From the NCBI RefSeq assembly GCF_027000115.1, contig NZ_JALTON010000031.1, positions 1-54,500 on the forward strand: DNA of 54,500 bases, given 5' to 3'. The position numbers were made by a program, and so were the translations under genes. This DNA is from Thiohalobacter sp. (GTDB lineage Bacteria > Pseudomonadota > Gammaproteobacteria > Thiohalobacterales > Thiohalobacteraceae). Shown one piece after another: positions 2,627 to 45,449 of this stretch. The notes beneath the pieces are model-generated. The model was not told the origin of the DNA. It worked only from the letters and a program-made list of their open reading frames with translations, and did not search any database. The stretch's first letter is position 1. Every line of letters starts with the position of its first letter.

Positions 2627-2882
2627 GCCCGCATATTGCGCCAGGGTCTGCGGATGATGGCGGATTTGCAGCCGGGTTCGGGGAGGGCTGGAGCGCAAGC
2701 CGTAGCCGTCGCTACGGCTTGCGTGAAGCGCCCCCGAGGCCGAGCGAAAATCCGCCAGGGCCGCAGCAGGATGCGGGCGGGCACAAATCGTACTCCGGGC
2801 CATGGGCAAGAAACCCGGTTCATTGCCCGCCAGGACAACAGGTTGCCTGCCGCCCGCTTCCGACCTGGTGCAATATGCGGGC
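2627..2882. repeat. MITE-like repeat, copy 1 (long form)
   Basis: This 256 bp element has 19 bp terminal inverted repeats. The left end is GCCCGCATATTGCGCCAGG; the right end is the complement of GCCCGCATATTGCACCAGG, with one mismatch. Outside, CTA and TAG extend the symmetry to 22 bp. Module A (2659-2756) folds into a long hairpin with GGCGGATTT/AAATCCGCC outside and CGCAAGCCGTAGC/GCTACGGCTTGCG at the tip. Module B follows, with GGCGGGCA/TGCCCGCC arms enclosing CCGGG/CCCGG. It fills the tyrS-mepM divergent intergenic region. No transposase is present, so it would have to be moved in trans, if it is mobile. Confidence 0.8.
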
Positions 2883-2984
2883 TAGACTGGGAGACCCGGT
2901 CCGCAGCTCGGTTGATTCCTGTGGCACGGAAGCTGCAGATAATTCTCAGGCCGGCCGACAACCTGACTGAAGGCCGGCAAGCTA

Positions 2985-3013
2985 TTGACTGCCGGTGCCA
3001 TGGCCGCTACTGT
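2985..3013 (+). promoter_or_regulatory. Putative sigma-70 promoter of the M23 peptidase gene
   Basis: TTGACT (2985-2990) and TACTGT (3008-3013) are separated by 17 bp. They would start a transcript near 3020, about 20 bases before the GTG at 3042. This arrangement argues against the longer ATG start at 2985, which lies inside the -35 box. Confidence 0.5.
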
Positions 3014-3041
3014 TCGGCCCGGAGAAACACAAGGAATTTCC

Positions 3042-4562
3042 GTGACCTATTCGTCGCAAGTGCGCATGGACTACAAGTCGCTGCTGGAACCCGCGCGGCG
3101 ACGGAAATTCGCCTCGCTCCACTGGTGGGCGCTGGGGCTTGCAGCCATCGGCGGGGCCGCCCTGTTCGTGGCCGGCCCCGAGGAGGCCACCGCTCACCGC
3201 GAGGCCGCGCTCCGAGGCGGAGAACAGGCCGTCACCCTGCCGTTGCCGGACATCACGGCCACTGCGGGGAGTCCCAGGCCAATACAGACCCCGCGCACCG
3301 CGAAGCTGAGCCTGCCGCACCCCGCGAGCTCCGAGCCGACACGGCCATCGGCAGCGGCACCCGCATCCGTTCCGAATCCGCCGGCCGTCGAGATCGATCC
3401 CGCCGTGGACGTGGCAGTCAGCACGCCGCATGCGCCAGGCGCCGAACCGGCAGGGCGCTGGGAAACCACCACCGTCCGCCCGGGCGACAGCCTGGCCCGC
3501 ATCTTTTCGCGCATGAAGCTCAGCGCCCGGGAGCTGCATGACATCATGGCGCTCGGTGAACCCGTCGCCAGCCTGAAGAAGATCCACCCGGGCGAGACCC
3601 TGCGTTTCCGCATCGGCGACGACGGCCGGCTGCTGGCGTTGCAGTACGACAAGAACCGGCTGCATGGCCTGATCGTGGAGCGCGGCGACGAAGGTTTCAG
3701 CGCCAGGGAGATCGCCCGCCAGCCGGAACGCGAGACGGCCTACGCCTCGGCCACCATCGACAGCTCGCTGTTCGTCGCCGCGCAACGGGCCGGCCTCAGC
3801 GACAACCTCACCATGGAACTGGCCAACATCTTCGGCTGGGACATCGACTTCGCCCTGGACATCCGCAAGGGCGACCGTTTCACCGTGCTGTACGAGAACC
3901 TCAATCTCGATGGCGAGCGCATCGGCCAGGGCGACATCCTTGCCGCCGAGTTCGTCAACCAGGGCCGCGTCTATCGCGCCGTACGCTACACCGATGCCAG
4001 CGGCCGCACGGACTACTACACCCCCGAGGGCCGCAGCATGCGCAAGGCCTTCCTGCGCACGCCGGTGGCCTTCTCCCGCATCAGCTCGCGCTTCAGCCTG
4101 GGGCGCAGGCATCCCATCCTGAACCGCATCCGCGCCCACAAGGGTGTCGATTACGCCGCGTCCTACGGCACGCCGATCAAGGCCACCGGCGACGGCAAGG
4201 TGGTCTTCCGCGGCACCAAGGGTGGCTATGGCCGCACCGTCATCCTCGCCCACGGCAGCCGCTACAGCACCCTGTATGCGCACATGTCGCGCATCGCCCG
4301 GGGCATCCGCAACGGCAGCCGGGTGAAGCAGGGCCAGGTCATCGGCTACATCGGCCAGTCCGGCCTGGCTACCGGGCCGCACCTGCACTACGAATTCCGC
4401 ATCAACGGTGTGCACCGCAATCCGCTGACGGTGAAGCTGCCGGCCGCGGCGCCCATCGACAAGCGCTACGCCGCGGACTTCAAACGCAAGTCCGCGACCC
4501 TGCTGGCCCAACTCGAACTGGTCCGCGAACGCGAGACCCAGGTCGCCCTGAACGGCAACTGA
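3042..4562 (+). CDS. mepM: OapA-type M23 murein DD-endopeptidase
   Basis: Predicted to cleave peptidoglycan crosslinks in the periplasm during wall expansion, like E. coli MepM. The order along 506 aa is: basic N-terminus, one membrane anchor (about residues 26-45, HWWALGLAAIGGAALF), a low-complexity Pro/Ala linker, an OapA/LysM-like domain (VRPGDSLARIF, about 145-220), then the M23 catalytic domain. The zinc signature is visible as HKGVD (H366, D370) and HLH (447-449). The GTG start is preceded by AAGGAA at suitable spacing and by a plausible promoter. The next gene, anmK, starts 26 bases downstream, which links wall cleavage to recycling of the sugar products. Confidence 0.9.
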   Translation: MTYSSQVRMDYKSLLEPARRRKFASLHWWALGLAAIGGAALFVAGPEEATAHREAALRGGEQAVTLPLPDITATAGSPRPIQTPRTAKLSLPHPASSEPTRPSAAAPASVPNPPAVEIDPAVDVAVSTPHAPGAEPAGRWETTTVRPGDSLARIFSRMKLSARELHDIMALGEPVASLKKIHPGETLRFRIGDDGRLLALQYDKNRLHGLIVERGDEGFSAREIARQPERETAYASATIDSSLFVAAQRAGLSDNLTMELANIFGWDIDFALDIRKGDRFTVLYENLNLDGERIGQGDILAAEFVNQGRVYRAVRYTDASGRTDYYTPEGRSMRKAFLRTPVAFSRISSRFSLGRRHPILNRIRAHKGVDYAASYGTPIKATGDGKVVFRGTKGGYGRTVILAHGSRYSTLYAHMSRIARGIRNGSRVKQGQVIGYIGQSGLATGPHLHYEFRINGVHRNPLTVKLPAAAPIDKRYAADFKRKSATLLAQLELVRERETQVALNGN

Positions 4563-4588
4563 ACCGGCCCCGAAGGCTCCCCCGACCC

Positions 4589-5698
4589 ATGACGGAGCCC
4601 ACCCTGTTCATCGGCCTCATGTCCGGCACCAGCCTGGACGCGATCGACGCCGTCGTGGTCGACTTCACCGATGACCGGCCGCGTCTGCTGGCGGCGGTCG
4701 CTCACCCGCTCGATGCCGACCTGCGCTCCCGCCTGCTGACCGCGCTCGCCTCCGACTGCACCGACCTCGACACCCTGGGCCGGCTGGATGCCGAACTGGG
4801 CGAGCGCTTCGCAGCCGCCGCAATCGCTGTCCGCGAGGCCGCGGGTCTCACGGCGGACGCAATCGCCGCCATCGGCAGCCATGGCCAGACACTGCGCCAT
4901 CGCCCGGACCTGCAACCCGCCTTCAGCTTGCAGATCGGCGACCCGGCCCGCATCGCCGAGCGTACCGGGATCACCACCGTCGCCGACTTCCGTCGCCGCG
5001 ATGTCGCCGCCGGTGGTCAGGGTGCGCCGCTGGTGCCCGCCTTCCACGCCGCCCTGTTTCGCGCACCGGACGAGGACCGCGCCGTACTCAACATCGGCGG
5101 CATGGCCAATCTCACCCTGCTGCCCGGCGACCCTGCGGCACCGGTCACCGGCTTCGACACCGGGCCGGGCAACGTGCTGCTGGACGGCTGGATCCGCAAA
5201 TGCCGCGGCGAGGCCTTCGACCGCGACGGTGCCTGGGCGGCGGGCGGGCGCGTGGACGAAACCCTGCTGGCCCGGCTGCTGGAGGACCCCTGGTTTCGGA
5301 GGCCACCACCCAAGAGCACCGGCCGCGAACACTTCGACCTCGAGTGGGTGAAGCAGCGACTGCCCGCCGGCATCGCACCTGCGGACGCGCAGGCCACACT
5401 GGCGGAACTGACCGCGCGCAGTATCGCCGATGCGATCCAACAGTGGGGCAGCGGCTGCCATCGCCTGCTGGTCTGCGGAGGCGGCGCGCGCAACGGCGAC
5501 CTGCTGCGGCGCCTGCAACACCGGCTCCCGGAAACCGCCGTGGAACCGACCGACGCGCATGGCCTGCCTGCGGAATGGGTCGAAGCGGTGGCCTTTGCCT
5601 GGCTGGCACGGGAAACCCTGGCTGGCCGCCCCGGTAATCTGCCCGGCGTCACCGGTGCCGCAGGCCCGCGGACCCTGGGCGCGATCTATCCGCGCTGA
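4589..5698 (+). CDS. anmK: Anhydro-N-acetylmuramic acid kinase
   Basis: Phosphorylates and opens 1,6-anhydro-MurNAc released from murein, giving MurNAc-6-phosphate for recycling. The hallmark GLMSGTSLDAID lies at residues 9-20, and further kinase-fold motifs are seen (GSHGQT, FDTGPGN, CGGGARN). At 369 aa it has the normal family length. It lies 26 bp after the M23 endopeptidase gene, so the two are probably cotranscribed. AmpD and AmpE, other murein-recycling functions, are encoded about 27 kb away in this window. Confidence 0.96.
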   Translation: MTEPTLFIGLMSGTSLDAIDAVVVDFTDDRPRLLAAVAHPLDADLRSRLLTALASDCTDLDTLGRLDAELGERFAAAAIAVREAAGLTADAIAAIGSHGQTLRHRPDLQPAFSLQIGDPARIAERTGITTVADFRRRDVAAGGQGAPLVPAFHAALFRAPDEDRAVLNIGGMANLTLLPGDPAAPVTGFDTGPGNVLLDGWIRKCRGEAFDRDGAWAAGGRVDETLLARLLEDPWFRRPPPKSTGREHFDLEWVKQRLPAGIAPADAQATLAELTARSIADAIQQWGSGCHRLLVCGGGARNGDLLRRLQHRLPETAVEPTDAHGLPAEWVEAVAFAWLARETLAGRPGNLPGVTGAAGPRTLGAIYPR

Positions 5699-5705
5699 GT
5701 GGCGC

Positions 5706-7151
5706 TCAGCCCTTCCAGAAGGTGGGTGTGAACAGCACCACCACGGTCATGATCTCCAGCCGCCCGAGCAGCATGCCGGCACTCAGCATCCACTTGGAGG
5801 CGTCGGGCAGGCTGGCAAAGTTGCCGGTCGGACCCACCACATCACCCAGCCCGGGGCCGACGTTGGTCACCGACGTGACCGCAGCGGTGAGGCTGGTGAC
5901 GAAATCCAGCCCCTGCATGGCCAGGCCCAGCGCCAGCAGACCGATGGTCAACCCGAAGAAGAAGGAAAAGGCGACGATGGAACGGATGACGTCGTCACCG
6001 ATCTCGCGGCCGTTGTACCGCTCGCGAATCACCGCCGTCGGATGCACCAGCCGGTGCAACTGCGCGCGCAGCAGCATCCAGGCGACCTGGAAGCGGAACA
6101 CCTTGATCGAGCCCGTGGTCGAGCCGGAGCAGGCGCCGACGAACATGAGATAGAAAAACACCACTGCCGCGAACGGCCCCCAGCTCTGATAGTCATGGGA
6201 GACGTAGCCCGTGGTGGTGATCACCGACACCACGTTGAACACCACGCGCGTCGCTATCACACCCAGTCCCTCGTCGCCGCGCAGCCAAAGCCAGGCAATC
6301 AACACCAGGCTGATGAAGGCCACGAAGCCCAGGAAGCCGCGCACCTGCGCGTCCCGCCACAGCAGCCCCGGCCGGCCACGCAGGGCATGAATGTAGAGGG
6401 TGAAGGGCAGCCCCCCCAGCAGCATGAACAGCACGCTGACCCAGTGAATGGCCGGTTGCGGGAAATGCCCCATGGAATCGTCATAGGTCGAGTAACCACC
6501 GGTGGAGATGGTGGTCATGATGTGGTTCAGGGCATCGAAGTCGTCCATGCCCGCCATCCGGTAGGCGAGAAAGCCCAGCACGGTCAGGCCGAGATAGATG
6601 GCTGCAATGGCGCGCGCCACGCTGGCAAAGCGCGGAAAGGCCTTTTCCGACCAGTCCGATGACTCGGACTGGAACAGCCGCATGCCGCCGACCCTGAGAA
6701 AGGGCAGGATGGCAACGCCCATGACGATGAAACCGATGCCCCCGGCCCATTGCAGCAGGGAGCGCCACAGCAGGATACCGCTGGCATGATGCTCCAGACC
6801 ACTGAGCACCGTGGCGCCGGTGGTGGTAATGCCGGACATGGTCTCGAAGAAGGCATCGGTAAAACCGATGTGCTCGACAAACATCAGCGGCAACGCGGCA
6901 AAGGCGCTCACCGAACACCAGACCAGGGTGGTCAGGACAAAGGCCTGGCGGGTGCTGAGGGAAAACTCGGACTGGCGGTTGAACACCACAGCAACGGCGC
7001 CGCAAAAGGCCGTGACGGCGGCAGCCAGCATGAAGGCGTTCCAGTGCCCTTCCTGGCGCAGCATCATCAGCAGCGCGGGTACCAGCATGAGCACGCCGAG
7101 CGCCACCAGGAACAGGCCAACGATGAACAGCAGCGGCCGCAACTGGATCAT
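5706..7151 (-). CDS. trkH: Trk system potassium uptake protein
   Basis: Integral inner-membrane channel/transporter for K+, normally gated by the cytoplasmic TrkA. The 481 aa protein holds four pore-loop repeats with selectivity-filter-like motifs: TTTGA (about 109-113), STGGYS, TTTGY and SVTNVGPG. It is converging on anmK (8 bp between stops) and lies 18 bp downstream of gltA on the same strand, so a gltA-trkH transcript is likely. The trkH and gltA genes appear inserted between two groups (tyrS-mepM-anmK and argC-erpA) that are adjacent in Pseudomonas. Confidence 0.95.
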   Translation of the reverse strand: MIQLRPLLFIVGLFLVALGVLMLVPALLMMLRQEGHWNAFMLAAAVTAFCGAVAVVFNRQSEFSLSTRQAFVLTTLVWCSVSAFAALPLMFVEHIGFTDAFFETMSGITTTGATVLSGLEHHASGILLWRSLLQWAGGIGFIVMGVAILPFLRVGGMRLFQSESSDWSEKAFPRFASVARAIAAIYLGLTVLGFLAYRMAGMDDFDALNHIMTTISTGGYSTYDDSMGHFPQPAIHWVSVLFMLLGGLPFTLYIHALRGRPGLLWRDAQVRGFLGFVAFISLVLIAWLWLRGDEGLGVIATRVVFNVVSVITTTGYVSHDYQSWGPFAAVVFFYLMFVGACSGSTTGSIKVFRFQVAWMLLRAQLHRLVHPTAVIRERYNGREIGDDVIRSIVAFSFFFGLTIGLLALGLAMQGLDFVTSLTAAVTSVTNVGPGLGDVVGPTGNFASLPDASKWMLSAGMLLGRLEIMTVVVLFTPTFWKG

Positions 7152-7169
7152 GCCGGTACCGCCTGCCGT

Positions 7170-8327
7170 TCAGCGCTGATCGATCGGCACGTAGTCGCGT
7201 TCCTGTTCGCCGGTATAGACCTGGGTGGGACGGAAGATGCGGTTGTCCTTGAGTTGCTCGCGCCAGTGCGCCAGCCAGCCGGCACAGCGGGCCACGGCAA
7301 AGATGGAAGTGAACTGGTCCTCGGGGATACCCATTTGCAGATACAGCAGCCCGGAGTAGAAATCGACATTGGGGTACACGCCCTTGGCGCCGAGACGCTG
7401 CTCCGCGGCCTTCTCCAGCGCCAGCGCGATCTCGAACAGGGGCGTGACCTCGCCGCCGCGCTTTTCCATCAGCTCCATCATCATGTTTTGCAGGATGGTG
7501 GCGCGCGGATCCTTGACCTTGTACTCGCGATGGCCAAAACCCCAGATCTTGCGCTTGTGCTCCAGCTGCTCGTCCAGCCAGGCCTCGACGCGATCCGGCG
7601 AGCCGATCTCACGCAGCATCTGCACCACCTTCTGGTTGGCGCCGCCGTGCAGGGGGCCTGCGAGGGTACCGACCGCAGCGGCAATCACCAGGTAGGGGCT
7701 GGCCAGGGTGGAACCGGCGACCAGCGCGGCAAAGGTGGAGGCATTGATGGTGTGCTCGGCATGCAGTATCAGGCAGGCATCCATGATCCGTGCATAGTCG
7801 GGGTCCGGATCCTCGCCATTGAACATGTACAGCAGGTTCTCGGCGTAGGTCAGATCCCTGCGCGGTTCGATCGGGTCGTAGCCGTTGCGCAGGTGTTCCC
7901 ACATGGCCACGATGGTGGCCATGCGGGCGAGGATCTTCACCGACATGTTGTGCACGTAGTTGAGATCCTCGCAGACATCACTGCCGGTCAGGCACTCGTC
8001 GCCGGGATAGAACATGGACAGGGCCGCGATCGCACTCTGCAGCATTTCCATCGGATGCCCGGTCTCGGGGAGGTACTTCATCATTTCCCGGATGTTGTAC
8101 TTGACCCGCCGGTTGTCGCGAAGCTGATGATCGAATTCCGTCAGTTCCTTGCGGGTAGGCAAGCGTCCGTCCAGCAGCAGCATGGCCGTTTCCTCGAAGC
8201 TGCTGCAGCGGGCCAGATCGGCGATGCGATAACCGCGATAGGTCAGGATGCCGCGCTTGCCGTCGAGATCGGAAATGTTCGACTTGGTGGCGGGAACGCC
8301 TTCGAGACCCGGCAGGTATTCGCTCAT
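7170..8327 (-). CDS. gltA: Citrate synthase
   Basis: Condenses acetyl-CoA and oxaloacetate to citrate, the first TCA step. The catalytic triad positions are recognisable: H227 (GPLHGGA), H266 (GFGHREY) and D322 (NVDFYSG), with the substrate-binding AEH at 190-192. At 385 aa with the opening SNISDLDGKRGILTYRGY it resembles the shorter dimeric citrate/2-methylcitrate synthase group rather than the roughly 430 aa NADH-regulated E. coli hexamer. No propionate genes are nearby, so citrate synthase is the preferred reading, but methylcitrate synthase activity cannot be excluded. Confidence 0.92.
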   Translation of the reverse strand: MSEYLPGLEGVPATKSNISDLDGKRGILTYRGYRIADLARCSSFEETAMLLLDGRLPTRKELTEFDHQLRDNRRVKYNIREMMKYLPETGHPMEMLQSAIAALSMFYPGDECLTGSDVCEDLNYVHNMSVKILARMATIVAMWEHLRNGYDPIEPRRDLTYAENLLYMFNGEDPDPDYARIMDACLILHAEHTINASTFAALVAGSTLASPYLVIAAAVGTLAGPLHGGANQKVVQMLREIGSPDRVEAWLDEQLEHKRKIWGFGHREYKVKDPRATILQNMMMELMEKRGGEVTPLFEIALALEKAAEQRLGAKGVYPNVDFYSGLLYLQMGIPEDQFTSIFAVARCAGWLAHWREQLKDNRIFRPTQVYTGEQERDYVPIDQR

Positions 8328-8382
8328 GGTGCATCCTCACGCAAGTGGACGGGCAGGCGCAAAGCATAGCAAAGCGGGACCC

Positions 8383-8415
8383 GGAAAAGGAAAAGGGGGC
8401 GCCAGGCGCCCCCTT
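8383..8415 (-). terminator. Intrinsic terminator of the argC-erpA operon
   Basis: AAGGGGGCGC (8393-8402) pairs with GCGCCCCCTT (8406-8415) around a three-base loop. Reading leftwards, the stem is followed by TTTTCCTTTTCC. It lies between the erpA stop and the gltA start, so it separates the two transcription units. Confidence 0.75.
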
Positions 8416-8433
8416 GATCCGTGATGCAGCGAC

Positions 8434-8790
8434 TCAGGCCGAGAAGGAGGAACCGCAGCCGCAGGTCGTGGTCGCGTTGGGATTGCGGATCACGAATTGC
8501 GCACCCTCGAGATCTTCCTTGTAGTCGATCTCGGCGCCGACCAGATACTGGAAGCTCATGGGATCGACCAGCAGGGTCACGCCGCACTGCTCGACGGTGG
8601 TATCACCCTCGTTGATGTCCTCGTCGAAGGTAAAGCCGTACTGGAAGCCCGAGCAGCCGCCGCCGGTGATGAACACGCGCAGCTTGAGGTTGGGGTTGTC
8701 TTCCTCCTCGATCAGACTCTTGACCTTGAGGGCCGCCGCCTCGGTAAAGATCAACGGCGATTCGGTTTCGGTCGCAGCGGTTTCGCTCAT
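8434..8790 (-). CDS. erpA: Iron-sulfur cluster insertion protein ErpA
   Basis: A-type carrier that delivers Fe-S clusters to apoproteins, including isoprenoid enzymes in E. coli. The three conserved cysteines are seen at C46 (GGGCSGFQY), C110 and C112 (CGCGSSF). I chose the ATG at 8790, giving 118 aa, because GGAGAA precedes it; a TTG/ATG extension upstream adds only six non-conserved residues. It is the last gene of a four-gene leftward operon (argC, DUF6776, bactofilin, erpA) and is followed by a strong terminator. Confidence 0.95.
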
Positions 8791-8859
8791 TTCAGTTCTC
8801 CACAGCAAGTGCCGGATGGTTCGGAAATGGCAAAATTATCCTTTTTCCGAGTACGGCAG

Positions 8860-9285
8860 TCAAGAATTCCGGGTGGCCAAGCCATCCTCGCCGGCCTCGT
8901 CGATGCGGGTCACCGGTGCCGGCTCGCGGGTTCCGCGATGCACCAGGTTGCCATTGACCTCGGCCCCCATGGCCATCTCGATCAGGCTGTAATAGACATT
9001 GCCGGTCACCCGTGCCTGCGCCGCCAGCTCGACCCGCTCGGCGGCATGGACATCCCCGATGACGGTGCCGTTGAGCATCAGGGTGGGCACCTGCACCTCA
9101 CCCTCGATACGACCATGTTCGCTGACCATCAGCAGGGCGTCGCCGCCCTCCGCGATCACGTTGCCCTTGATGGTCCCATCCACATGCAGGCCGCCGCTGA
9201 AGCGGATGTCGCCCTCGATCACCGTCTGCTGCCCGATCAGCGTATCGATGCGCGCCGGGCTCTTCCTGAGCTTGATTCCGAACAT
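8860..9285 (-). CDS. Bactofilin family cytoskeletal protein
   Basis: Bactofilins polymerise without nucleotide into filaments used for cell shape, stalks, polarity or wall-enzyme placement. This 141 aa protein has the central right-handed beta-helix built from Val/Ile/Gly repeats (about residues 15-110; for example VIEGDIRF, VDGTIKGNV, RIEGEVQVP, VIGDVHA, VTGNVYY) with short polar tails. It lies 69 bp before erpA and 21 bp after the DUF6776 gene, which has a membrane helix and coiled coil. That co-occurrence is conserved in Pseudomonas and suggests a shared envelope role. Confidence 0.92.
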   Translation of the reverse strand: MFGIKLRKSPARIDTLIGQQTVIEGDIRFSGGLHVDGTIKGNVIAEGGDALLMVSEHGRIEGEVQVPTLMLNGTVIGDVHAAERVELAAQARVTGNVYYSLIEMAMGAEVNGNLVHRGTREPAPVTRIDEAGEDGLATRNS

Positions 9286-9306
9286 GGCACTGTCTCCCTG
9301 GCTGCC

Positions 9307-10041
9307 TCAGGCCGGCGCCTGCGGGTGCTCCGCCGGCCATTCAAAGGTCCATTCTAGCGGATCGGCGCCGCGCCGTGACGGGATCGCCTTCACAGTCACG
9401 CGCTCGGGCACGAAGCCGGGCGGGAACCGCCATTCCCCCTGGATATTCTGGAAATAGCGGAAACGGTACTTGAAATCACGGCTTGCGTCGGCGCTGATGT
9501 CCGCCTGCTCGAGCGTCTTTGCGGCCCCGCCCTGCTGGCCGGTGACCGCCAGCCGCACCCGCCCGCTCGCGACGCGGTCGTTCTTCTTGATCTGCACCAG
9601 CACCAGCCGGAACCGGTAGCCGTTCTCCAGCCCGGGGATCGGCTCGACCACGAACCCCTGGGCCTGAAGGCCGATACGGCTGGTTTCCGGGGCCATGATG
9701 CCCCGGTAGAACGTGAGTTCCTTCTGCAGGTCGTGGATCTGCTGCTCCAGCGCTGCCCGGTCACGACGGATCTCCGCGTAGGCCGCCTCGTCGACCTGGC
9801 GCGCACGCTGGAGCAGCGCCAGCGAGCGCTCGGCCTCCGCCAGACGCTCGTGTGCCGCCGCCAGTTCCTGCGCCAGTCGATCGCGCTCGGCGCCGAGCCG
9901 CAGCAGCTCGGCCTCGGCATGACTGCCGCCCATGCGATACAGTTGCCAGCCGCCGACCAGGGCCAGCACCGCGAGCAGGGCCAGCGCCATCCGAAGTTTC
10001 CAGGCACGGTAGACGAAGACCTCGGTGCGATGGGCATCCAT
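9307..10041 (-). CDS. DUF6776 family membrane-anchored coiled-coil protein
   Basis: A 244 aa protein of unknown function. A single N-terminal membrane helix (about residues 17-35, LRMALALLAVLALVGGW) is followed by a Leu/Glu/Ala-rich coiled coil (about 40-110) and a beta-rich C-terminal domain (about 115-235, with FVVEPIPGLENGYRFRLVLV and FRYFQNIQGEWRFP). I infer that the soluble part faces the periplasm. It lies 9 bp after argC and 21 bp before the bactofilin gene, so it may tether or sense something for the bactofilin. The family name is assigned from remembered sequence features and gene order, not from a search. Confidence 0.75.
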   Translation of the reverse strand: MDAHRTEVFVYRAWKLRMALALLAVLALVGGWQLYRMGGSHAEAELLRLGAERDRLAQELAAAHERLAEAERSLALLQRARQVDEAAYAEIRRDRAALEQQIHDLQKELTFYRGIMAPETSRIGLQAQGFVVEPIPGLENGYRFRLVLVQIKKNDRVASGRVRLAVTGQQGGAAKTLEQADISADASRDFKYRFRYFQNIQGEWRFPPGFVPERVTVKAIPSRRGADPLEWTFEWPAEHPQAPA

Positions 10042-10050
10042 GCGCGACGC

Positions 10051-11134: not shown

Positions 11135-11272
11135 GCCCGCATATTGCGCCAGGGGCTGGGATGATGGCGGGCACACATCGTACTCCGGGCCATGGGCAAG
11201 AAACCCGGTTGATTGTGCACCAGGACAACAGGTCGCCCCCCGCCCGCTTCCGCCCTGGTGCAATATGGGGGC
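11135..11272. repeat. MITE-like repeat, copy 2 (short form)
   Basis: A 138 bp copy with the same termini as copy 1: GCCCGCATATTGCGCCAGG at the left and CCTGGTGCAATATGGGGGC at the right. It retains GGATGATGGCGG and then jumps directly into module B (GGGCAC...ATCGTACTCCGGGCC...AAGAAACCCGG), so module A has been deleted. It occupies most of the divergent argC/CLC intergenic region and may affect expression of both. Confidence 0.75.
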
Positions 11273-14413: not shown

Positions 14414-14456
14414 GCAAATCCGCCATCATCCGCAGCCCCTGGTGCAACATGCGGGT
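14414..14456. repeat. MITE-like repeat, copy 3 (terminal fragment)
   Basis: The stretch is the reverse complement of the left 43 bp of the long form: GCAAATCCGCCATCATCCGC, then the degenerate end CCTGGTGCAACATGCGGGT. The other end and both hairpin modules are missing, so it is a relic. It lies between hemJ and the porin gene. Confidence 0.65.
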
Positions 14457-14522
14457 TAACCCAGAAAGCGTGACCAGATAACCCGTTGTTTCTCCTAGAT
14501 CTCACCGTCTCCTTCAAGTTGT

Positions 14523-24404: not shown

Positions 24405-24662
24405 ACCCCCCATAGTGCACCAGGGGCTGCGGATGATGGCGGATTTGCAGCCGGGCTCGGGGAGGGCTGGCACTCAAGCCGTGGCCGTCGCTACGGCTTG
24501 AGTGAAGCGTCCCCGAGACCGAGCAAAAATCCGTCAGGGCCGCAGCAGGATGCGGGCGGCCACAAAATGCACGCGGAGACAAAGAGGTCGAATTCCGGTT
24601 CATCGTCCACCAGCGCAACAAGTTGCCCGCCGCCCGCTTCCGCCCGGCTGCAATATGGGGGC
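24405..24662. repeat. MITE-like repeat, copy 4 (long form)
   Basis: A 258 bp long-form copy with degenerate left end (CCCCCCATAGTGCACCAGG) and right end CTGCAATATGGGGGC. Module A is intact at 24438-24535; compared with copy 1 its tip stem has CTCAAG/CTTGAG in place of CGCAAG/CTTGCG, a compensatory change. Module B is partly degenerate (the GGCGGGCA arm reads GGCGGCCA). It sits between tusA-like and tetR, and its left end supplies the tetR ribosome-binding site. Confidence 0.75.
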
Positions 24663-25636: not shown

Positions 25637-25648
25637 GCCGCCATCCCT

Positions 25649-25856
25649 GCTTCAGGTGCCCGCGGCCCTTCCCCTGGCCGCGGGTGAAACGGGAAGCCGG
25701 TGCGCCCCGGAGAACCCCGGTGCAAGTCCGGCGCTGCCCCCGCAACGGTAGGTGAGTCAGGGGCCGATCCTCTAGCCACTGTGTCGATGACACGGGAAGG
25801 CGATCGGCCCGGAAAGCCCGGCTTTCCACTCGCGAGCCCGGAGACCGGCCTGAGGC
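25649..25856 (+). ncRNA. Cobalamin (AdoCbl) riboswitch
   Basis: The conserved B12 core is present: the B12 box with GCCACTG (25775-25781) and GGGAAGGC (25794-25801), the upstream GAAACGGGAAGCCGG, CCGGTGCAAGTCCGG, GCTGCCCCCGCAACGGTA and GTGAGTCAGG, and the closing GAGCCCGGAGACCGGCCTGA. The end helix P1 is formed by the CTTCAGG and CCTGAGG ends. It controls btuB and probably tonB and the PduO gene. Between its end and the btuB start (136 bp) is a GGCGCGCGGGTGCGCGCC-like stem but no U-run, so translational control is likely. Confidence 0.93.
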
Positions 25857-25992
25857 GTTCGTGTGATGTGCTGCGGAGGGCGGCACAGCGGCGCAACGGC
25901 CCGGTTCCGTTTCCCCGTCCCCGCTCTCGCTTGCCACCACAGACCGCAACCGGCGCGCGGGTGCGCGCCCCGACACGAGAGCCTAGCCCGAC

Positions 25993-38273: not shown

Positions 38274-38301
38274 ATTATAGACGGGGATTGTCTCGCCGCA
38301 A
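38274..38301 (-). promoter_or_regulatory. Promoter of the EAL gene
   Basis: On the minus strand, TTGCGG (38296-38301) and a perfect TATAAT (38274-38279) are separated by 16 bp. Transcription would begin near 38267, leaving a leader of about 39 bases before ATG 38228. Confidence 0.6.
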
Positions 38302-38498: not shown

Positions 38499-38521
38499 GA
38501 GGCCGGGCAATGCCCGGCCTC
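38499..38521 (-). terminator. Intrinsic terminator of glnB
   Basis: GAGGCCGGGCA (38499-38509) and TGCCCGGCCTC (38511-38521) form an 11 bp stem; leftwards it is followed by TTGCGTTGG. It lies 28 bp after the glnB stop. Confidence 0.6.
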
Positions 38522-38548
38522 TCGTCGGCGAATCGCCCGGCTCTCCGT

Positions 38549-38935
<387 letters not shown>

Positions 38936-38991
38936 TCAATGCGGCTGAAAAGCTGGGGCAGGGTGCGCGACGGTGGGCAAGGTGGTTTGCT

Positions 38992-39026
38992 TGATGGGCA
39001 CGCTTCGCTTTGCCCAGCCTACCTCA
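38992..39026. repeat. GATGGGCA repeat, tandem unit 1
   Basis: TGATGGGCACGCTTCGCTTT followed by GCCCAGCCTACCTCA. The GGGCA...TGCCC arms make a short hairpin. A near-identical unit lies 76 bp to the right. It is in the 220 bp between nadE and glnB. Confidence 0.7.
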
Positions 39027-39067
39027 TTGATGAACAGGGTACGTGGCCGTGGGATGGGCGGTTTGGG

Positions 39068-39102
39068 TGATGGGCACGCTTCGCTTTGCCCATCCTACCT
39101 CA
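39068..39102. repeat. GATGGGCA repeat, tandem unit 2
   Basis: TGATGGGCACGCTTCGCTTT followed by GCCCATCCTACCTCA, differing from unit 1 by one base (T for G). The preceding bases GGTTTG are also shared, so a segment of about 76 bp appears duplicated in part. It ends five bases before the nadE stop codon. Confidence 0.7.
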
Positions 39103-39106
39103 CGCC

Positions 39107-40759
39107 TCACACATCCTTCCGGTCCTCGAGCTGGGTGGCGAGGTAACCAGAGGTGATGGGATAGCGGCGGTCGCGGCCGAAGGCACGGCGCGACACCCGC
39201 ACGCCGGGCGGTGCCTGGCGACGCTTGTACTCGTTGCGGTCGACCATCCAGGCCACACGCCGCACCACCGCCTCGTCGAAGCCGGCGGCGACGATGTCGC
39301 CGATGCTCTGGTCGCACTCGACATAGCGCTCGAGGATGGCATCCAGCACCGGATAGGGCGGCAGCGAGTCCTGATCGGTCTGATCGGGCGCCAGCTCGGC
39401 CGAGGGCGGGCGGCTGATGACCCGCGCGGGGATGATCTCGCGCTCGCGATTGAGGTATTCGGCGAGCCGGTAGACCATGGTCTTGGGCACGTCCTTGATA
39501 GGCGCAAAGCCGCCGGCCATGTCGCCGTAGAGGGTGGTGTAGCCCACCGCGACCTCGCTCTTGTTGCCGGTGGTGAGCAGGATCTTGCCGGTCTTGTTGG
39601 AGATCGCCATCAGGATCACACCGCGGCAGCGGGCCTGGATGTTTTCCTCCGTGACATCGGGCTCCAGGCCGCGGAATTCGTCGGCCAGCACATCGAGAAA
39701 GGCCTGGAACGGCCGCTCGATGGGGATCACCCGCCAGGTCACCCCCAGCCGGGTGGCCTGGGTGCGCGCATCCTCGACGCTCATCCCGGCGGTATAGCGC
39801 GAGGGCATCATCACCGCCTCGACCGCCTCCGCACCCAGCGCCTCGACGGCAATGGCCAGGGTCAGCGCCGAATCGATGCCGCCGGACAAACCCAGCACCG
39901 CGCCGGGAAAGCGGTTCTTGTGCACATAGTCGCGCACGCCCAGCACCAGCACCTTCAGCAGCCGCCCCTCCAGGGGCTCGAAGGCACAGACTTCGCCACC
40001 GCGCGGGCGCAAGGGGCCATCGGCAATTTCGAACTCGGCGAGGAACAGCCCCTCCTCGCAGAAGGGCGCGCGCTGCACCACCTCGCCGCGCGCATCCATG
40101 ACGAAGGACTCTCCATCGAACACCAGTTCGTCCTGGCCGCCGACCAGGTTGAGATAGACCGCCGGCAGGCCCGTCTCGCGCACGCGGTCGCGCACCGCCG
40201 CCTCGCGCTCGACCTCCTTGCCGAGGTGGAAGGGCGAGGCGTTGATGTTGAGGACAAGCTGCGCGCCGGCCTCGTGCACCATGGCCGCAGGGCCGGGATT
40301 CCAGATGTCCTCGCAGATGGTGAGCCCCAACCGCGCACCCTTGAACTCGAACACGCAGCCGCCATCGCCGGGCACGAAGTAGCGTTTCTCGTCGAACACG
40401 GCATAGTTGGGCAGATGCTGCTTGAGGCAGACCGCTTCGATGCGGCCGTCGCGGATCACCGAGGCGGCATTGTGCAACCCGCCGATGTCGCGGTGCGGAT
40501 GGCCAACCACCAGGGCGATGCCCTCCACCTGCCGGCGGATGGATTCCAGCGCCTCCAGCACATGCACCTGCAGGCCGGGACGCAGCAGAAGGTCTTCGGG
40601 CGGGTAGCCGGTCAGCGCCAGCTCCGGGAACAGCAGCAGGTCGGCCTTGAGCCGGTCGCGTGCCTCGGCGGCGACCTCGATGATCCGGCGCGCGTTGCCG
40701 TGCACGTCACCGACCAGCAGGTCGATCTGCGCCAGCGCGATGCGAAGGGTCTGGCTCAT
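39107..40759 (-). CDS. nadE: NAD+ synthase, glutamine-hydrolysing
   Basis: Final step of NAD+ synthesis, amidating nicotinate adenine dinucleotide. The 550 aa protein joins an N-terminal nitrilase-type glutaminase (Glu46, Lys113 and Cys149 as the likely triad; FPELALTGYPPEDLLL, CLKQHLPNY, TICEDIWNPG) to a C-terminal synthetase with the P-loop SGGIDS (292-297). ATG 40759 begins the conserved RIALAQIDLLVGDV segment; AGGCC lies upstream. Confidence 0.95.
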   Translation of the reverse strand: MSQTLRIALAQIDLLVGDVHGNARRIIEVAAEARDRLKADLLLFPELALTGYPPEDLLLRPGLQVHVLEALESIRRQVEGIALVVGHPHRDIGGLHNAASVIRDGRIEAVCLKQHLPNYAVFDEKRYFVPGDGGCVFEFKGARLGLTICEDIWNPGPAAMVHEAGAQLVLNINASPFHLGKEVEREAAVRDRVRETGLPAVYLNLVGGQDELVFDGESFVMDARGEVVQRAPFCEEGLFLAEFEIADGPLRPRGGEVCAFEPLEGRLLKVLVLGVRDYVHKNRFPGAVLGLSGGIDSALTLAIAVEALGAEAVEAVMMPSRYTAGMSVEDARTQATRLGVTWRVIPIERPFQAFLDVLADEFRGLEPDVTEENIQARCRGVILMAISNKTGKILLTTGNKSEVAVGYTTLYGDMAGGFAPIKDVPKTMVYRLAEYLNREREIIPARVISRPPSAELAPDQTDQDSLPPYPVLDAILERYVECDQSIGDIVAAGFDEAVVRRVAWMVDRNEYKRRQAPPGVRVSRRAFGRDRRYPITSGYLATQLEDRKDV

Positions 40760-40799
40760 GACAGAGGCCTGTTCCCGGGCGCGCGGGCAGCAGACGCGG

Positions 40800-40886
40800 G
40801 ATAGCCGAAGCAGCGCAGCGACCTGTCCATCATGATCCGCCGGCCTGATGATGGGCACGGCCCTTCGGACCTTTGCCCATCCTACG
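40800..40886. repeat. GATGGGCA repeat, bipartite copy
   Basis: CAGCGCAGCGACCTGTCCATC then TGATGATGGGCACGGCCC and ACCTTTGCCCATCCTACG form two half units around ATGATCCGCCGGCC. The same order is found at 41885-41975. It lies between sucD and nadE. Confidence 0.65.
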
Positions 40887-40947
40887 GGTTTTTCGCAACG
40901 ATAGAGGGAATCCCGTCATGGCATGACCTCCGGCGGCTGGCGCAGAC

Positions 40948-41814
40948 CTACAGGCGATCGGCCATGGCGCGCCCCATGTCGGCCGGCGAGCGGACCACGG
41001 TCACGCCGGCCGCCTCCAGTGCCGCGATCTTGGCCTCGGCGGTACCGCTGCCGCCGCTGATGATGGCGCCGGCATGACCCATGCGCTTGCCCGGCGGCGC
41101 GGTGACACCGGCGATATAGGCGACCACGGGCTTGCTCACCTGGCCGCGTATGAACTCGGCGGCCTCTTCCTCCGCGCTGCCGCCGATCTCGCCCACCAGG
41201 ATGATGCCCTCGGTCTGGGGATCGTCCTCGAACCGTTCCAGGCAGTCGACGAAGTCCAGGCCATGGATGGGATCGCCGCCGATGCCGACGCAGGTGCTCT
41301 GCCCCAGCCCGGCCAGCGTGGTCTGGTGCACCGCCTCGTAAGTCAGGGTGCCGGAACGCGACACGATGCCGATGCGACCCGGCTGATGGATGGCGCCGGG
41401 CATGATGCCGATCTTGCAGGCCCCGGGCGTGATCACGCCGGGACAGTTGGGACCGATCAGGTCCACGCCGCTGCCTGCCAGCGCCGCCTTGACCCGCAAC
41501 ATGTCCAGCACCGGGATGCCCTCGGTGATGCAGACGATCACCCGGATGCCGGCGTCGGCGGCCTCGAGAATGGCATCGGCAGCGAAGGGCGCCGGCACAT
41601 AGATCATGCTGGCATCGGCGCCGGTTTCGCGCACCGCCTCGGCGACGGTATCGAACACCGGCCGATCGAGATGCGTCTGGCCGCCCTTGCCCGGGGTGAC
41701 ACCCCCCACCAGGTGGGTGCCGTAGGCAATGGCCTGCTCGGAATGGAAACTGCCCTGCTTGCCGGTGAAGCCCTGGCAGATGACACGCGTGCTGCTGTTG
41801 ACGAGGATACTCAT
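40948..41814 (-). CDS. sucD: Succinyl-CoA synthetase alpha subunit
   Basis: With SucC converts succinyl-CoA to succinate with nucleotide triphosphate formation. The 288 aa subunit has the phosphohistidine H247 in RMGHAGAI (E. coli H246), the CoA-binding [15 protein letters not shown] and the [11 protein letters not shown] loop. It is separated from the upstream sucC by 175 bp that hold a bipartite GATGGGCA repeat, which is unusual because these genes commonly overlap or nearly do. Confidence 0.96.
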
Positions 41815-41884
41815 GGGGTCGTCAGATACAAGTTGCAGGATACAAGATACAAATGCCTTCCCCTTGTGGAATGCTGTTCAGCCC

Positions 41885-41975
41885 GCAGGATGGGCAAAGG
41901 CGCGCAGCGACGTGCCCATCATGATTCACCGGCGTGATGATGGGCACGGCCTTTCCGGCCTTTGCCCATCCTACG
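41885..41975. repeat. GATGGGCA repeat, complete bipartite copy
   Basis: AGGATGGGCAAAGGCGCGCA...TGCCCATCA is mirrored by TGATGGGCACGGCC...CCTTTGCCCATCCTACG, giving two hairpins that also pair with each other. It sits between sucC and sucD in a single operon, so the structure would be transcribed. Confidence 0.7.
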
Positions 41976-41989
41976 CTGCTTGTCTCTTG

Positions 41990-43162
41990 TCACCTGGATC
42001 CTGCAGCCGCGGCCGCAACGGCCGTCCTGGCCGCTTCCGTCAGGTCATCCACCGGAATCAGATCGAGCCCCGACTCGCCAAGCAAACGGCGGCCGCTTTC
42101 GACATTGGTACCCTCGAGGCGCACCACCACGGGCAGCGACACATCCACCTCGCGCACCGCCTGGATGATGCCCTCGGCGATGAGGTCGCAGCGCACGATG
42201 CCGCCGAAGATGTTGACCAGGATGGCGCGCACCTTGGTATCGGACAGGATCAGCTTGAAGGCCTCGGCGACCTTCTCCGCCGTGGCGCCGCCGCCCACGT
42301 CCAGAAAATTGGCGGGCTCGCCGCCGTGCAGCTTGATCAGGTCCATGGTCGCCATCGCCAGGCCGGCACCGTTCACCATGCAGGCGATGTTGCCGTCGAG
42401 GGTGACATAGTTCAGCCCGTGCTCCCGTGCCTGGCGCTCGCGCGGCTCCTCCTGCAGCGGGTCGCGCAGCTCGGCCAGCGCCTTGTGGCGATACAGGGCG
42501 TTGTCGTCGAGGTTGATCTTGGCGTCCAGCGCCAGCAGGACATCGTCGCCGGTGACGATGAGCGGATTGATCTCCACCAGGCTGCAGTCCTGTTCCTGGA
42601 ACAGGCGCACCAGCGCCAGCAGGATGCGGCTGAAGGCCCCGACCTGGGCGGCATTCAGCCCGAGCCGGAAGCCGAGCTTGCGGCACTGGTAGGGCTGCAG
42701 GCCGGCGACGGGATCGACCGCCTCGGTGAGGATGGCCTCGGGCGTCTCGGCGGCGACCGCCTCGATGTCCATGCCGCCGGCGGCGGAGGTCATCACGGTC
42801 AGCCGCTCGCGGGCGCGGTCCACCAGCACACTGACATACAACTCGCGGACGATGTCCTGCGGCTGCTCGACCAGCAGTGCCTCCACGGGGAGGCCATCGG
42901 CCCCGGTCTGGGGCGTGACCAGGCGGCTGCCCAGCAGTTCGCCGGCAACCCGGTCCAGCGTCTCCAGGTCCTCGACCAGGCGCACGCCCCCGGCCTTGCC
43001 CCGGCCGCCGGCATGCACCTGCGCCTTGAGCACCCAGCGCCCGCCGCCGAGCGACCGGGCCACGCTCACCGCTTCGTCGGTGCTGCGCGCAACGTCGCCT
43101 GCCGGCACCGGAATGCCGTACTCGGCGAACAGCCGCTTGGCCTGGTATTCGTGCAGATTCAT
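41990..43162 (-). CDS. sucC: Succinyl-CoA synthetase beta subunit
   Basis: ATP-grasp subunit of 390 aa that binds nucleotide and succinate. Recognisable are [44 protein letters not shown] and [16 protein letters not shown] precedes ATG 43162. The first of two TCA genes transcribed leftwards; it diverges from the small zinc-ribbon gene before pilS. Confidence 0.96.
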
Positions 43163-43275
43163 TGCCGCGCCCCTTCGCGCCACCGCAGACAGGCCCGCTA
43201 TTGTGCATGGAAGGCCGGGGCCGGGCAAAGCGCGGCGGCTTGCGCCCCGTCACCGGAACCCGGAAACTTCCCGGC

Positions 43276-43500
43276 ATGGGACTGATTCGCCTGCTCCTGC
43301 TGGTGGCCATCGTGTGGCTGGCCTACCATATCTACCGACGCTGGAAGCTCGGCCGCGCCGTCCCGCCAACGGCAACGCGCGCGGCCGGCGACATGGTGCG
43401 CTGCCGACACTGCGGCCTGTTCCTGCCGCGGGAACAGGCGCTGCGCAACGGCGATCACTACTATTGCTCGCAGGCCCACCGGCAGGCCGACCGCGGCTGA
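43276..43500 (+). CDS. Small membrane-anchored zinc-ribbon protein (PP0621 type)
   Basis: A 74 aa protein with an N-terminal membrane helix (MGLIRLLLLVAIVWLAYHIY) and a zinc-ribbon-like C-terminus with CRHC and YYCSQAH. Such a small gene is commonly found immediately before pilS in Gammaproteobacteria; here it starts 11 bases before. Its role is unknown; association with pilus regulation is by context. Confidence 0.8.
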   Translation: MGLIRLLLLVAIVWLAYHIYRRWKLGRAVPPTATRAAGDMVRCRHCGLFLPREQALRNGDHYYCSQAHRQADRG

Positions 43501-43511
43501 CGGCCCCGCCC

Positions 43512-45155
43512 ATGCCGGCCACCGACCTCCGCTTCCCCGACAGCAGCCTGCATGCCGATCGCAGCGATCACCTGACCTGGAAACCGCTGCGCTTCCTCAC
43601 CCTCTACCGGCTGCTGCTGGCCAGCCTGATCGTCAGCCTGTTCTTCATGCTGCCCTCGCTGTCCTCGCTGGGCGGCCAGGCGCCCTGGCTGTTCGGCAGC
43701 GTGGCGGTACTCTATTTCCTGTTCGCGCTCGCCGCCGGCTTCGCCGCGCGCCGCCGCCGCCCCGCCTTTGCCGTGCAGGTATTCGTGCAAACGCTGGTGG
43801 ATGTCGTCGCCATCCTGCTGCTGGTGCACGCCAGCGGCGGGGTGGGCAGCGGCCTGGGCATCCTGCTGGTGCTGGCCATCGCCGGCGGCGCACTGCTGCT
43901 GCCCGGGCGCATGGCCTACTTCTTCGCCGCCACCGCCAGCATCGGGCTGTTGCTGGAGCTGGGCTATCGCACCCTCGACGGCCAGGGCATCGGCAGCGGC
44001 GATCTCACCCGTACCGGCCTGCTCGGCTTCGGCCTGTTCGCCACCGCCATCCTCGCCTCCTTCCTCGCCCGGCGCATCCGCGAGACCGAGGCCCTGGCCG
44101 AGCAGCGCGGGGTGGACCTCGCCAACCTGGCACGACTCAACGAGCACGTGATCCAGCGCCTGCAGTCCGGTATCCTGGTGGTGGACGATCAGGATCGCAT
44201 CCGGCTCATCAACGACACCGCCTGGATCATGCTCGGCCTGCCCGCCGACCACCCGGCCGAACGCCTCGCCCAGGTCTCGCCCCGGCTGGCCGAACAGCTC
44301 GCAGCCTGGCGCGCCGATCCCGACAGGACCGCCGAGTCCTTCCAGCCTGCCCATGGCGAGGCCAGCCTGCGCGCCCACTTCACCCCCCTGGGACGGGTGC
44401 GCGGCGCGGCGACCCTGATCTTTCTGGAGGACGCCGCCCTGCTGGAACAGCAGGCGCAGCAGCTCAAGCTGGCGGCGCTGGGCCGGCTCACCGCCAGCAT
44501 CGCCCACGAGATCCGCAACCCGCTCGGCGCCATCAGCCACGCCAACCAGCTGCTGGCAGAATCGGCGCACCTGGACGCCGACGACCGCCGCCTGTCGGAG
44601 ATCATCGCCAACCACGCGGAGCGGGTGAACACCATTGTCGAGAACGTGCTGGCGCTGTCGCGGCGCGGGCGCACCGAGCCCCAGCCCATCCGCCTCGCCG
44701 AGTGGCTGGCGGACTTTCGTGACGAGCTGGTGCGCTGCGGCGGCATCACCCCGGACCGGCTGACCCTCGAGGTCGAGCCGCCCGACCTTACCATCAGCTT
44801 CGACCCCAACCAGTTGCACCAGGTGGTATGGAATCTGGTACAAAATGCGCTGCAGCACGCCGGCACGGAGGCGCAGCCGGCGGCAGTCACCCTGAGCGCG
44901 CGGCGCGCGGAGGCCGGGGCGGCCTGGCTGGACGTGATCGACAACGGCCGCGGCATCGACGCCGAGGGCCAGGCGCGGATCTTCGAGCCCTTCTACACCA
45001 CCGCCGGCCAGGGCACCGGACTGGGGCTGTATCTGGCCCGCGAACTGTGCGAGGCCAACCGCGCCCGGCTCAACTACGTCCCCGGCCGTCGCCGCGGCGC
45101 CTGCTTCCGCATCAGCTTCAGCCGCGTGCCCGCGATGGAAGCGGGACGCCCATGA
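43512..45155 (+). CDS. pilS: Sensor histidine kinase PilS
   Basis: Membrane sensor for pilin level that controls PilR. The 547 aa protein has about six N-terminal helices (25-195), a PAS-like segment (about 215-310, HVIQRLQSGILVVDDQDRIR), the dimerisation/phosphoacceptor motif ASIAHEIRNPLG with His332, and HATPase motifs NLVQNALQHA, DNGRGI and GTGLGLY. The C-terminus is followed within eight bases by a MITE-like repeat. Unusually, pilR does not follow directly but lies about 2.1 kb away. Confidence 0.95.
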   Translation: MPATDLRFPDSSLHADRSDHLTWKPLRFLTLYRLLLASLIVSLFFMLPSLSSLGGQAPWLFGSVAVLYFLFALAAGFAARRRRPAFAVQVFVQTLVDVVAILLLVHASGGVGSGLGILLVLAIAGGALLLPGRMAYFFAATASIGLLLELGYRTLDGQGIGSGDLTRTGLLGFGLFATAILASFLARRIRETEALAEQRGVDLANLARLNEHVIQRLQSGILVVDDQDRIRLINDTAWIMLGLPADHPAERLAQVSPRLAEQLAAWRADPDRTAESFQPAHGEASLRAHFTPLGRVRGAATLIFLEDAALLEQQAQQLKLAALGRLTASIAHEIRNPLGAISHANQLLAESAHLDADDRRLSEIIANHAERVNTIVENVLALSRRGRTEPQPIRLAEWLADFRDELVRCGGITPDRLTLEVEPPDLTISFDPNQLHQVVWNLVQNALQHAGTEAQPAAVTLSARRAEAGAAWLDVIDNGRGIDAEGQARIFEPFYTTAGQGTGLGLYLARELCEANRARLNYVPGRRRGACFRISFSRVPAMEAGRP

Positions 45156-45162
45156 GGCACTG

Positions 45163-45306
45163 GCCCGCATATTGTCCCAGGCCGGAAGCGGGCGGCAGAC
45201 AACTTGTTGTCCTGGCGGGCAATGAACCGGATTTCTTGCCCACGCGGCCCGGAGTACGATGTACGCCCGCCCGCTTGCTGCTGCGGCCCTGGTGCAATAT
45301 GCAGGC
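45163..45306. repeat. MITE-like repeat, copy 5 (short form, inverted)
   Basis: A 144 bp copy in the opposite orientation to copies 1, 2 and 4. It has ends GCCCGCATATTGTCCCAGG and CCTGGTGCAATATGCAGGC. Module B is present (TGGCGGGCAATGAACCGG, TTCTTGCCCAC, CCCGGAGTACGAT); module A is absent, with a junction different from that of copy 2. It begins eight bases after the pilS stop. Confidence 0.75.
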
Positions 45307-45338
45307 TATTGAGGATGACATAAACGCCTGACGTTTTC

Positions 45339-45421
45339 GTAGCCCGGATGGCGCGAAGCGAAATCCGGGAACAGGCCGCGCTTTCCCGGATTCCGGCCCT
45401 TCGGGCCTTCATCCGGGCTAC
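45339..45421. repeat. GTAGCCCGGATG repeat, complete copy
   Basis: GTAGCCCGGATGGCGCGAAG, then CGAAATCCGGGAA, is mirrored by TTTCCCGGATTCCGG and CATCCGGGCTAC. The arms GTAGCCCGGATG/CATCCGGGCTAC are perfectly complementary over 12 bp. It lies between pilS and the orphan lipoprotein gene, beside MITE-like copy 5. Confidence 0.75.
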
Positions 45422-45428
45422 AGGATGA

Positions 45429-45449
45429 CTGGTGCAATATGCGGGCTAG
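45429..45449. repeat. Solo terminal repeat of the MITE-like family
   Basis: CTGGTGCAATATGCGGGCTA with a following G matches the right end of copy 1 exactly over its 21 bases. No partner end or internal module is attached, so it is either a relic or the outer end of a nested element that began at 45163. Confidence 0.65.

Follow-up and report, generated by a model that had tools for sequence, protein, structure and literature searches.

The 54,500-nucleotide (nt) stretch of the Thiohalobacter sp. genome analysed here (hereafter the window; contig NZ_JALTON010000031.1, positions 1 to 54,500) harbours several copies of a short non-coding repeat with inverted ends. It probably represents a family of miniature inverted-repeat transposable elements (MITEs) that carries the ends of a subgroup of IS1380 insertion sequences (ISs), is moved in trans by an IS1380-type transposase and contains an inner hairpin, module A, that aids its mobilisation. 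According to this proposal, a DDE transposase of the IS1380 type, supplied by an element not found in the Thiohalobacter genome, would cut at the ends, and the excised DNA would be inserted into YTAR tetramers with duplication of these 4 bp; we infer that an enzyme of this type acts on these MITEs. Module A would most likely aid mobilisation by being extruded as a hairpin or by serving as a binding site for the transposase or a host protein, and its loss, probably by deletion between short direct repeats, would give rise to the short forms of the element.

At the level of the ends, a preliminary description of the window had reported 19-bp inverted termini common to six places. This 19-mer, with up to 3 mismatches, is matched 10 times in the window as against 0.03 times expected from shuffled sequences, and the shared termini are present at all six places. 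The inverted nature of the termini was confirmed and their length was not, since alignment of 24 copies with their flanks placed the true borders at CTAG-CCCGCATATTGCACCAGG ... CCTGGTGCAATATGCGGG-CTAG. The end is thus 18 bp long (CCCGCATATTGCACCAGG) and begins with C; the preceding G belongs to the 4-bp target CTAG, of which it is the final base. When copy 1 was used as a BLAST query against its own genome, 70 matches were obtained (40 strong and 30 weaker, the latter mostly reverse matches of the palindrome), 24 of them near full-length. With 3 mismatches allowed, the 18-bp end is found 172 times in the whole genome (2,648,815 bases in 63 contigs) and a reversed control once, from which roughly 100-200 insertions may be estimated; the "hundreds" anticipated earlier were of about the right order. 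At 2 mismatches, end matches are present in 17 of 95 relatives, and the spread within the own family is patchy, with 323 in genome G004, 138 in the Thiohalobacter genome, 14 in G008, 12 in G003 and none in the other seven genomes. YTAG followed by the end occurs in 21 of the 369 genomes of the class sample. Plasmid and phage records gave no match to copy 1, and viral contigs no exact match to CTAG plus the end. Concerning the assembly itself, the contig ends of C17, C27, C30, C36 and C55 lie inside copies or within about 150 bases of them, and it is probable that the contigs break at this repeat.

Insertion into a duplicated target was assessed in 32 own elements and 52 elements of G004 retaining both ends, drawn from loci picked by best match and from copy-bearing stretches rather than from whole genomes. 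Identical 4-mers flank 17 of the 32 and 28 of the 52, compared with 0-1 at five shifted positions in the former set and 0-1 at shifted positions in the latter, as well as 14 of 25 elements in other genomes. The target is mostly YTAR (CTAG, TTAA): the own duplications comprise CTAG (10), TTAA (3), ATAG (2), CTTA (1) and CAAG (1), and those of G004 CTAG (16), TTAG (4), CTAA (3), CTAT (2), ATAG (1), TTAA (1) and CAAG (1). Because ATAG, CAAG, TTAG and CTAA are not palindromic, the possibility that the inverted repeat is merely longer is excluded. A nested copy at C61:95557 splits the end of another copy at ATAG and leaves the empty site visible, its joined flanks matching undisturbed copies, four of them at 84-89% over 47-49 bp and further ones at 77-89% over 40-53 bp. 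This is the one clean empty site in the own genome and was judged against paralogous copies; nested candidates in G004 have less clean junctions. Terminal inverted repeats, a length of 134-257 bp that leaves no room for a transposase gene, the duplications and the nested copy all agree with the initial view of these repeats as MITEs that encode no transposase.

The 32 own elements fall into 9 short (134-160 bp) and 23 long ones (250-257 bp). The long form, of about 254 bp, joins module A, a near-perfect hairpin, to module B. Module A is missing from the short forms, whose junctions differ between copies 2 and 5, just as described at the outset. On visual inspection, these junctions coincide with short direct repeats (CCAGGG; GGATGNNGGCGG), and module A may accordingly have been deleted through slippage between them. 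One short copy, L184 (contig C40:65752), appears by eye to consist of module A without B. Identity between pairs of long copies reaches 99.6% (median 91.6%), and the highest value indicates that some movement is recent.

As judged from sequence comparison, the ends and the target of the MITEs are those of an IS1380 subgroup, because IS1380 elements elsewhere have the same kind of ends and a YTAR target. The best candidate parent lies in G160, an Acidihalobacter metagenome-assembled genome (MAG), as an element of 1637 bp from border to border whose ends are identical to the MITE ends at 16 of 18 positions and which encodes an intact 448-aa IS1380 transposase (NF033539 423.9 bits, cut-off 180; PF13701 570.7 bits). 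A decayed IS1380 transposase in G324 stands between CTAG-CCCGGATATTGCCCG and its partner end, with CTAG on both sides, and plasmid pEP1 of Acidovorax temperans carries CTAG-CCCGGATATTTCAC...GTGAAATATCCGGG-CTAG around a transposase annotated as IS1380 family. In a survey of the best 80 IS1380 loci from a scan of named genomes, whose hosts include Halomonas, Acidovorax and planctomycete MAGs, a terminal repeat was detected in 69 (11 had none, and some of the 69 are plainly due to chance); in 37 of these an end agrees with that of the MITE at 13 or more of the 18 positions, and the end of the Halomonas socia element reaches 17/18. YTAR duplications flank 38 of the 69 loci and ATAG one more, the 39 being what is left of 47 called duplications when 8 that look shifted or masked (CCGG 5, ATAT, GCGC, NNNN) are set aside; these figures come without a shifted control from a choice of borders that favoured duplications. 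An IS1380-like parent, at first only guessed at, is supported by these matching ends and targets, although the insertion sequences with such ends belong to other bacteria (G160, pEP1, Halomonas socia) and none was found in the own genome. Comparison of the MITE with the IS1380 loci gave matches at the ends (best E 0.017) and weak inner ones (E 0.2 or worse), with no convincing similarity of the interior. IS5-type elements also use a YTAR target; an IS5-type parent was rejected because PF01609 is unmatched in the own genome and none of its 13 matches in G004 lies between such ends.

The element is also distinguished by its core. Module A is a 128-base hairpin lying some 15 bp inward from one end in elements that mostly measure 238-256 bp, with exceptions of 272 bp in one G156 copy and 266 bp in G032, and cores of the long form recur in other bacterial families. 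In an alignment of 17 copies of 251-272 bp from six genomes of six families (own, G156, G367, G220, G121, G100), with mean identities between genomes of 50-73%, RNAalifold predicted 57 pairs, 32 of them with two-sided changes. For 36 core pairs, 95.4% of cells are paired across the six families and two-sided changes affect 27. Covariation amounts to 0.594 as compared with 0.224 ± 0.017 in shuffled and 0.06-0.08 in slid alignments, and to 0.620 versus 0.201 ± 0.007 after shuffling in 86 distinct rows of an alignment fitted to R1, a covariance model of the module A hairpin alone. At a threshold of E 1e-4 or better, R1 matches 27 of the 369 class genomes, in 21 families, some weakly (E near 1e-6; G004 E 2e-6); 8-9 candidates were scored per genome, so that copy counts are lower bounds. 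Outside the class, searching 398 genomes sampled from the phylum gave matches in three genomes of one family of another class (E 8e-5 to 9e-7), where paired ends exist at 4 of 4 loci and CTAG stands on both sides of one. In the 27 genomes, paired ends surround the hairpin at 23 of 30 loci versus 1 of 30 after shuffling, with an identical duplication in 12; one of the 23, in G140 (379 bp, AGGT/ACCT), is probably spurious. At the seven loci without paired ends, a template-free search recovered ends with CTAG duplications in G304 and G268 and ends without duplication in G335; it returned none at G298, G296 and G077, and the second end of G299 was not found. The ends vary by lineage and mostly agree within a copy, as exemplified by CCCGCATTTCTCAC (G250, G272), CCTGCATATTGCAGC (G273) and CCCTCATATCTCACC (G053). 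Across about twenty families, the pairing of the core is retained, as are its position some 15 bp inward from one end and, roughly, the length of the element, while the ends change with lineage.

The genomic context of the insertions was analysed with crude hexamer-based gene calls of our own. CTAG is rare in the own genome, with 87 occurrences in a 451-kb sample versus 367 expected from trinucleotides. Within this sample, 4 of 39 insertions lie in predicted genes as compared with 58 of 193 free YTAR sites (p 0.01), and the corresponding numbers in G004 are 6 of 75 and 97 of 356 (p 0.0002). The early statement that every copy is intergenic is consequently right only in rough terms, and within the window it fails for the copy at 24407, the left end of which is inside a predicted open reading frame. 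Ends coincide exactly with the stop codon of a gene in 9 of 54 own cases and 10 of 112 in G004, and in all 19 the gene lies outside the element and reads into it. Seven of the nine own proteins concerned have a Pfam match; in a 363-aa protein (YchF C-terminal domain) and a UPF0047 protein the domain extends nearly to the last residue, which indicates that these two genes are whole. The stop codon is preserved because YTAR contains TAG or TAA and is duplicated, so that this target provides a route to insertion at a gene end without harm. Stop codons as a preferred target were rejected, there being no demonstrable excess beyond availability: 9 of 35 own insertions versus 23 of 135 free YTAR sites (p 0.24), and 10 of 69 versus 28 of 259 in G004 (p 0.40). 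As to orientation, genes enter the module A end in 11 cases and the module B end in 15 among 24 copies, with no clear bias.

Several observations weigh against mobilisation by an IS1380-type enzyme. Movement in trans, as originally proposed, is backed by the lack of room for a transposase inside the copies; movement itself was not observed and is deduced from the copies, and identical flanks are missing in 15 of the 32 own elements. Profile searches of the own genome, a draft of 63 contigs, gave no match to PF13701, PF01609 or NF033539, and G004, a single contig with 323 end matches, yielded no IS1380 transposase, its PF13701 matches all being below the cut-off. NF033539 matches at 1e-10 one of the 27 hairpin-bearing genomes (G273) versus 40 of 369 overall; another carrier, G367, retains a decayed PF13701 remnant with stops. 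The 27 genomes with R1 matches do not include G160, which bears the best parent, and the flanks of the G160 element are unequal (TTAG/CTGA). An IS1380-type gene (145 bits) also occurs in G009, a member of the own family; this genome has no end match at 2 mismatches, and such ends are not near the gene, save for one 3-mismatch match far upstream. In addition, IS1247, a member of IS1380, appears with a 5-bp repeat in a listing of PMC3281130. A search of 73 loci bearing IS1380 did not recover R1 (best E 0.88); hence module A was not inherited from the parents seen. As most carriers gave no IS1380 match, two explanations offer themselves: the parent is gained and lost repeatedly, or these MITEs depend on a different enzyme. 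That a different, perhaps host-encoded and immobile transposase moves them, the IS1380-like ends being a sign of remote ancestry or convergence, seems to us rather improbable. It would suit the rarity of IS1380 among carriers and the absence of PF13701 and PF01609 matches from a genome whose copies include a pair recent enough to be 99.6% identical, and it has a precedent in the REPINs, which are moved by RAYT. However, ends, end variants and YTAR target all match IS1380 elements, the 13 DDE_Tnp_1 matches of G004 do not lie between such ends, and a lost or unassembled IS would account for the absence. The mostly intergenic location, the palindromic structure, the high copy number and a GTAG-type repeat beside copy 5 would also recall a repetitive extragenic palindromic (REP) sequence, a REPIN or some other palindromic family instead of a DDE element, an explanation that we consider extremely improbable and that the 4-bp duplications already contradict, as do the empty site and the IS1380-like ends.

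The reason why the hairpin is kept was sought in the distribution of changes among the 23 own long copies. Deviating cells represent 1.1% in module A stems, 9.4% in loops and 3.9% at paired end positions, the structure being derived from the same alignment, which favours stems. Private changes occur at 0.0061 in stems and 0.0053 in loops, and shared changes at 0.0051 versus 0.088. After omission of three divergent copies, the remaining 20 show shared variants at 2 of the 86 columns assigned to stems and at 8 of the 36 assigned to loops, with private changes being equal in stem and loop (p 0.74). Since the variants that have been passed on avoid stems and the private ones of resident copies do not, this pattern points to a requirement for mobility rather than to a use by the host. 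On the opposite side of the balance, module A has a lower frequency of private changes than module B, which the mobility argument does not explain, and short forms without module A also stand between duplications, so that the hairpin would not be strictly needed unless it was deleted in place. Moreover, G-U cells outnumber A-C cells across families (131 versus 51 in 83 rows; 90 versus 51 once a single mostly G-U pair is removed), and mismatches of the types G-G and G-A together far outnumber those of the types C-C and U-C (123 versus 14), which suits RNA and implies that one strand behaves as the structured one; for this count three of 87 rows were dropped (two reverse self-matches and one partial), which the 86-row covariation keeps. 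Together with the strong fold (z -13.6; other strand -10.8), the covariation in both the 17 sequences and the 86 rows and the abutment of copies on gene stops, these excesses would favour a structured RNA or regulatory element kept for host genes (3' end, stability, termination) and not for mobility as such. We regard this as unlikely, given that no clear orientation bias exists, that private stem changes are strand-neutral (G-U 5, A-C 5, other 2), that no Rfam family reaches its gathering score on the element, that terminator-like sites number one versus 0.4 expected, and that the short form folds weakly better than shuffles (z -2.5); the G-U excess may itself come from fitting to an RNA model. 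It is likewise doubtful that the two-sided changes are mutational rather than selected, the arms of the palindrome correcting each other through template switching. The same deviation does occur at both ends of an own copy in 7 cells versus 1.4 expected (maximum 6 in 5000 permutations) and in G004 in 26 cells versus 9.2, mostly at two subfamily positions, and G-U cells are few (131 of 2965). Nevertheless, two-sided changes affect 0 of 44 pairs in the module A stems of own copies, and template switching does not fit the depletion of shared variants, not private ones, from stems. Such deviations shared by both ends of one copy, for example in L044, L047, L050 and L192, could reflect either paired correction or end matching. 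Returning to an aid to mobilisation as the preferred role of module A, a tentative and rather speculative extension is that it acts in cis as a mobility signal for a non-autonomous lineage. This lineage would have persisted in two bacterial classes, mostly without resident IS1380, and its ends would shift to fit whichever IS1380-like or host-encoded transposase is available, as a DDE counterpart of REPIN-RAYT.

With regard to known systems, the family shares with IS1380 (NF033539, PF13701) the CCCGSATATTKCAC-type termini, the YTAR target and, in the elements compared, the 4-bp duplication, and differs in that the own MITEs measure 134-257 bp, code for nothing and have a hairpin core that was not detected in the 73 IS1380 loci mentioned. 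The enzymes of piggyBac and IS1380 may be rather close kin. REPIN-RAYT systems also comprise non-coding palindromes moved in trans; to our knowledge, REPs do not make such target duplications. In work on bacterial MITEs, the core seems mostly to be regarded as filler. Bacterial MITEs such as Correia elements, TIMEs and QMITE2, as presented in the portions of PMC4133298 and PMC10969869 consulted, are similarly short, mostly intergenic and foldable, with terminal inverted repeats and no transposase; the present family differs in its covarying core recurring in about twenty families. In the review text available from this comparison, neither IS1380 nor "stop codon" is mentioned. The part of PMC10813416 considered describes for piggyBac, which is eukaryotic and autonomous, a TTAA-like 4-bp duplication and termini often starting with CCC, and uses IS1380 as outgroup. 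Among the matches listed in open-licence literature (titles and abstract openings), no bacterial MITE is assigned to IS1380, and the papers containing 10-11-mers of the end carry, among the matches listed, titles on unrelated subjects. The MITE status itself is of a known kind, and the novelty is the covarying core common to about twenty families, usually without a resident parent. With such a conserved core, the control of MITE mobility by inner structure becomes accessible to testing, as does the persistence of MITEs beyond the loss of their parent.

Table 1. Copies of the MITE family and other features; positions refer to the window unless a contig or locus is named.
Feature	Position	Strand	Basis or remark
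Target duplication CTAG, left of copy 1	2624..2627	.	Flank alignment
Copy 1, long form (A+B), intact 18-bp ends	2628..2881	+	Copy alignment
Module A hairpin, copy 1	2644..2770	+	Model R1, 119.5 bits; copy 1 is among the model-building sequences
Module B, copy 1; weaker, more variable hairpin	2771..2863	+	Borders by eye
Target duplication CTAG, right of copy 1	2882..2885	.	Flank alignment
Copy 2, short form without module A	11136..11271	+	Flanks CTGG/CGAG, no duplication remaining
Copy 3, fragment: module-A-side end and ~24 inner bases	14414..14455	-	TTAA next, 14456-14459
Copy 4, long form, divergent	24407..24661	+	Flanks TTAC/CTGG
Module A hairpin, copy 4	24423..24549	+	Model R1, 116.8 bits; copy 4 is among the model sequences
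Copy 5, short form without module A, junction unlike copy 2	45164..45305	-	Flanks CTGG/CTAT
Solo end	45428..45445	-	Adjoins CTAG (45446-45449) and second repeat family
Second MITE-like family, other places	Contig C6:5242-5401; G004 loci L197, L198, L203, L210
Third repeat (GTAG-type)	45339-45421, 48632-48716, 7021, 23786, 29113
16S rRNA gene, contig end inside	1-975
Cobalamin riboswitch	25637-25867		101 bits

Two further repeats were noticed in the neighbourhood of these copies. A second MITE-like family, common to the own genome and G004, has inverted ends CAGCCTGTCGGACTTAGG and spans about 160 bp between its outer edges; at 45450-45500 of the window it lies next to the CTAG and the solo end listed in Table 1. 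The third repeat, represented by GTAGCCCGGATGAAGGC and its inverse, is REP-like with a GTAG start and has 6 matches in the window and 14 in 451 kb including these.

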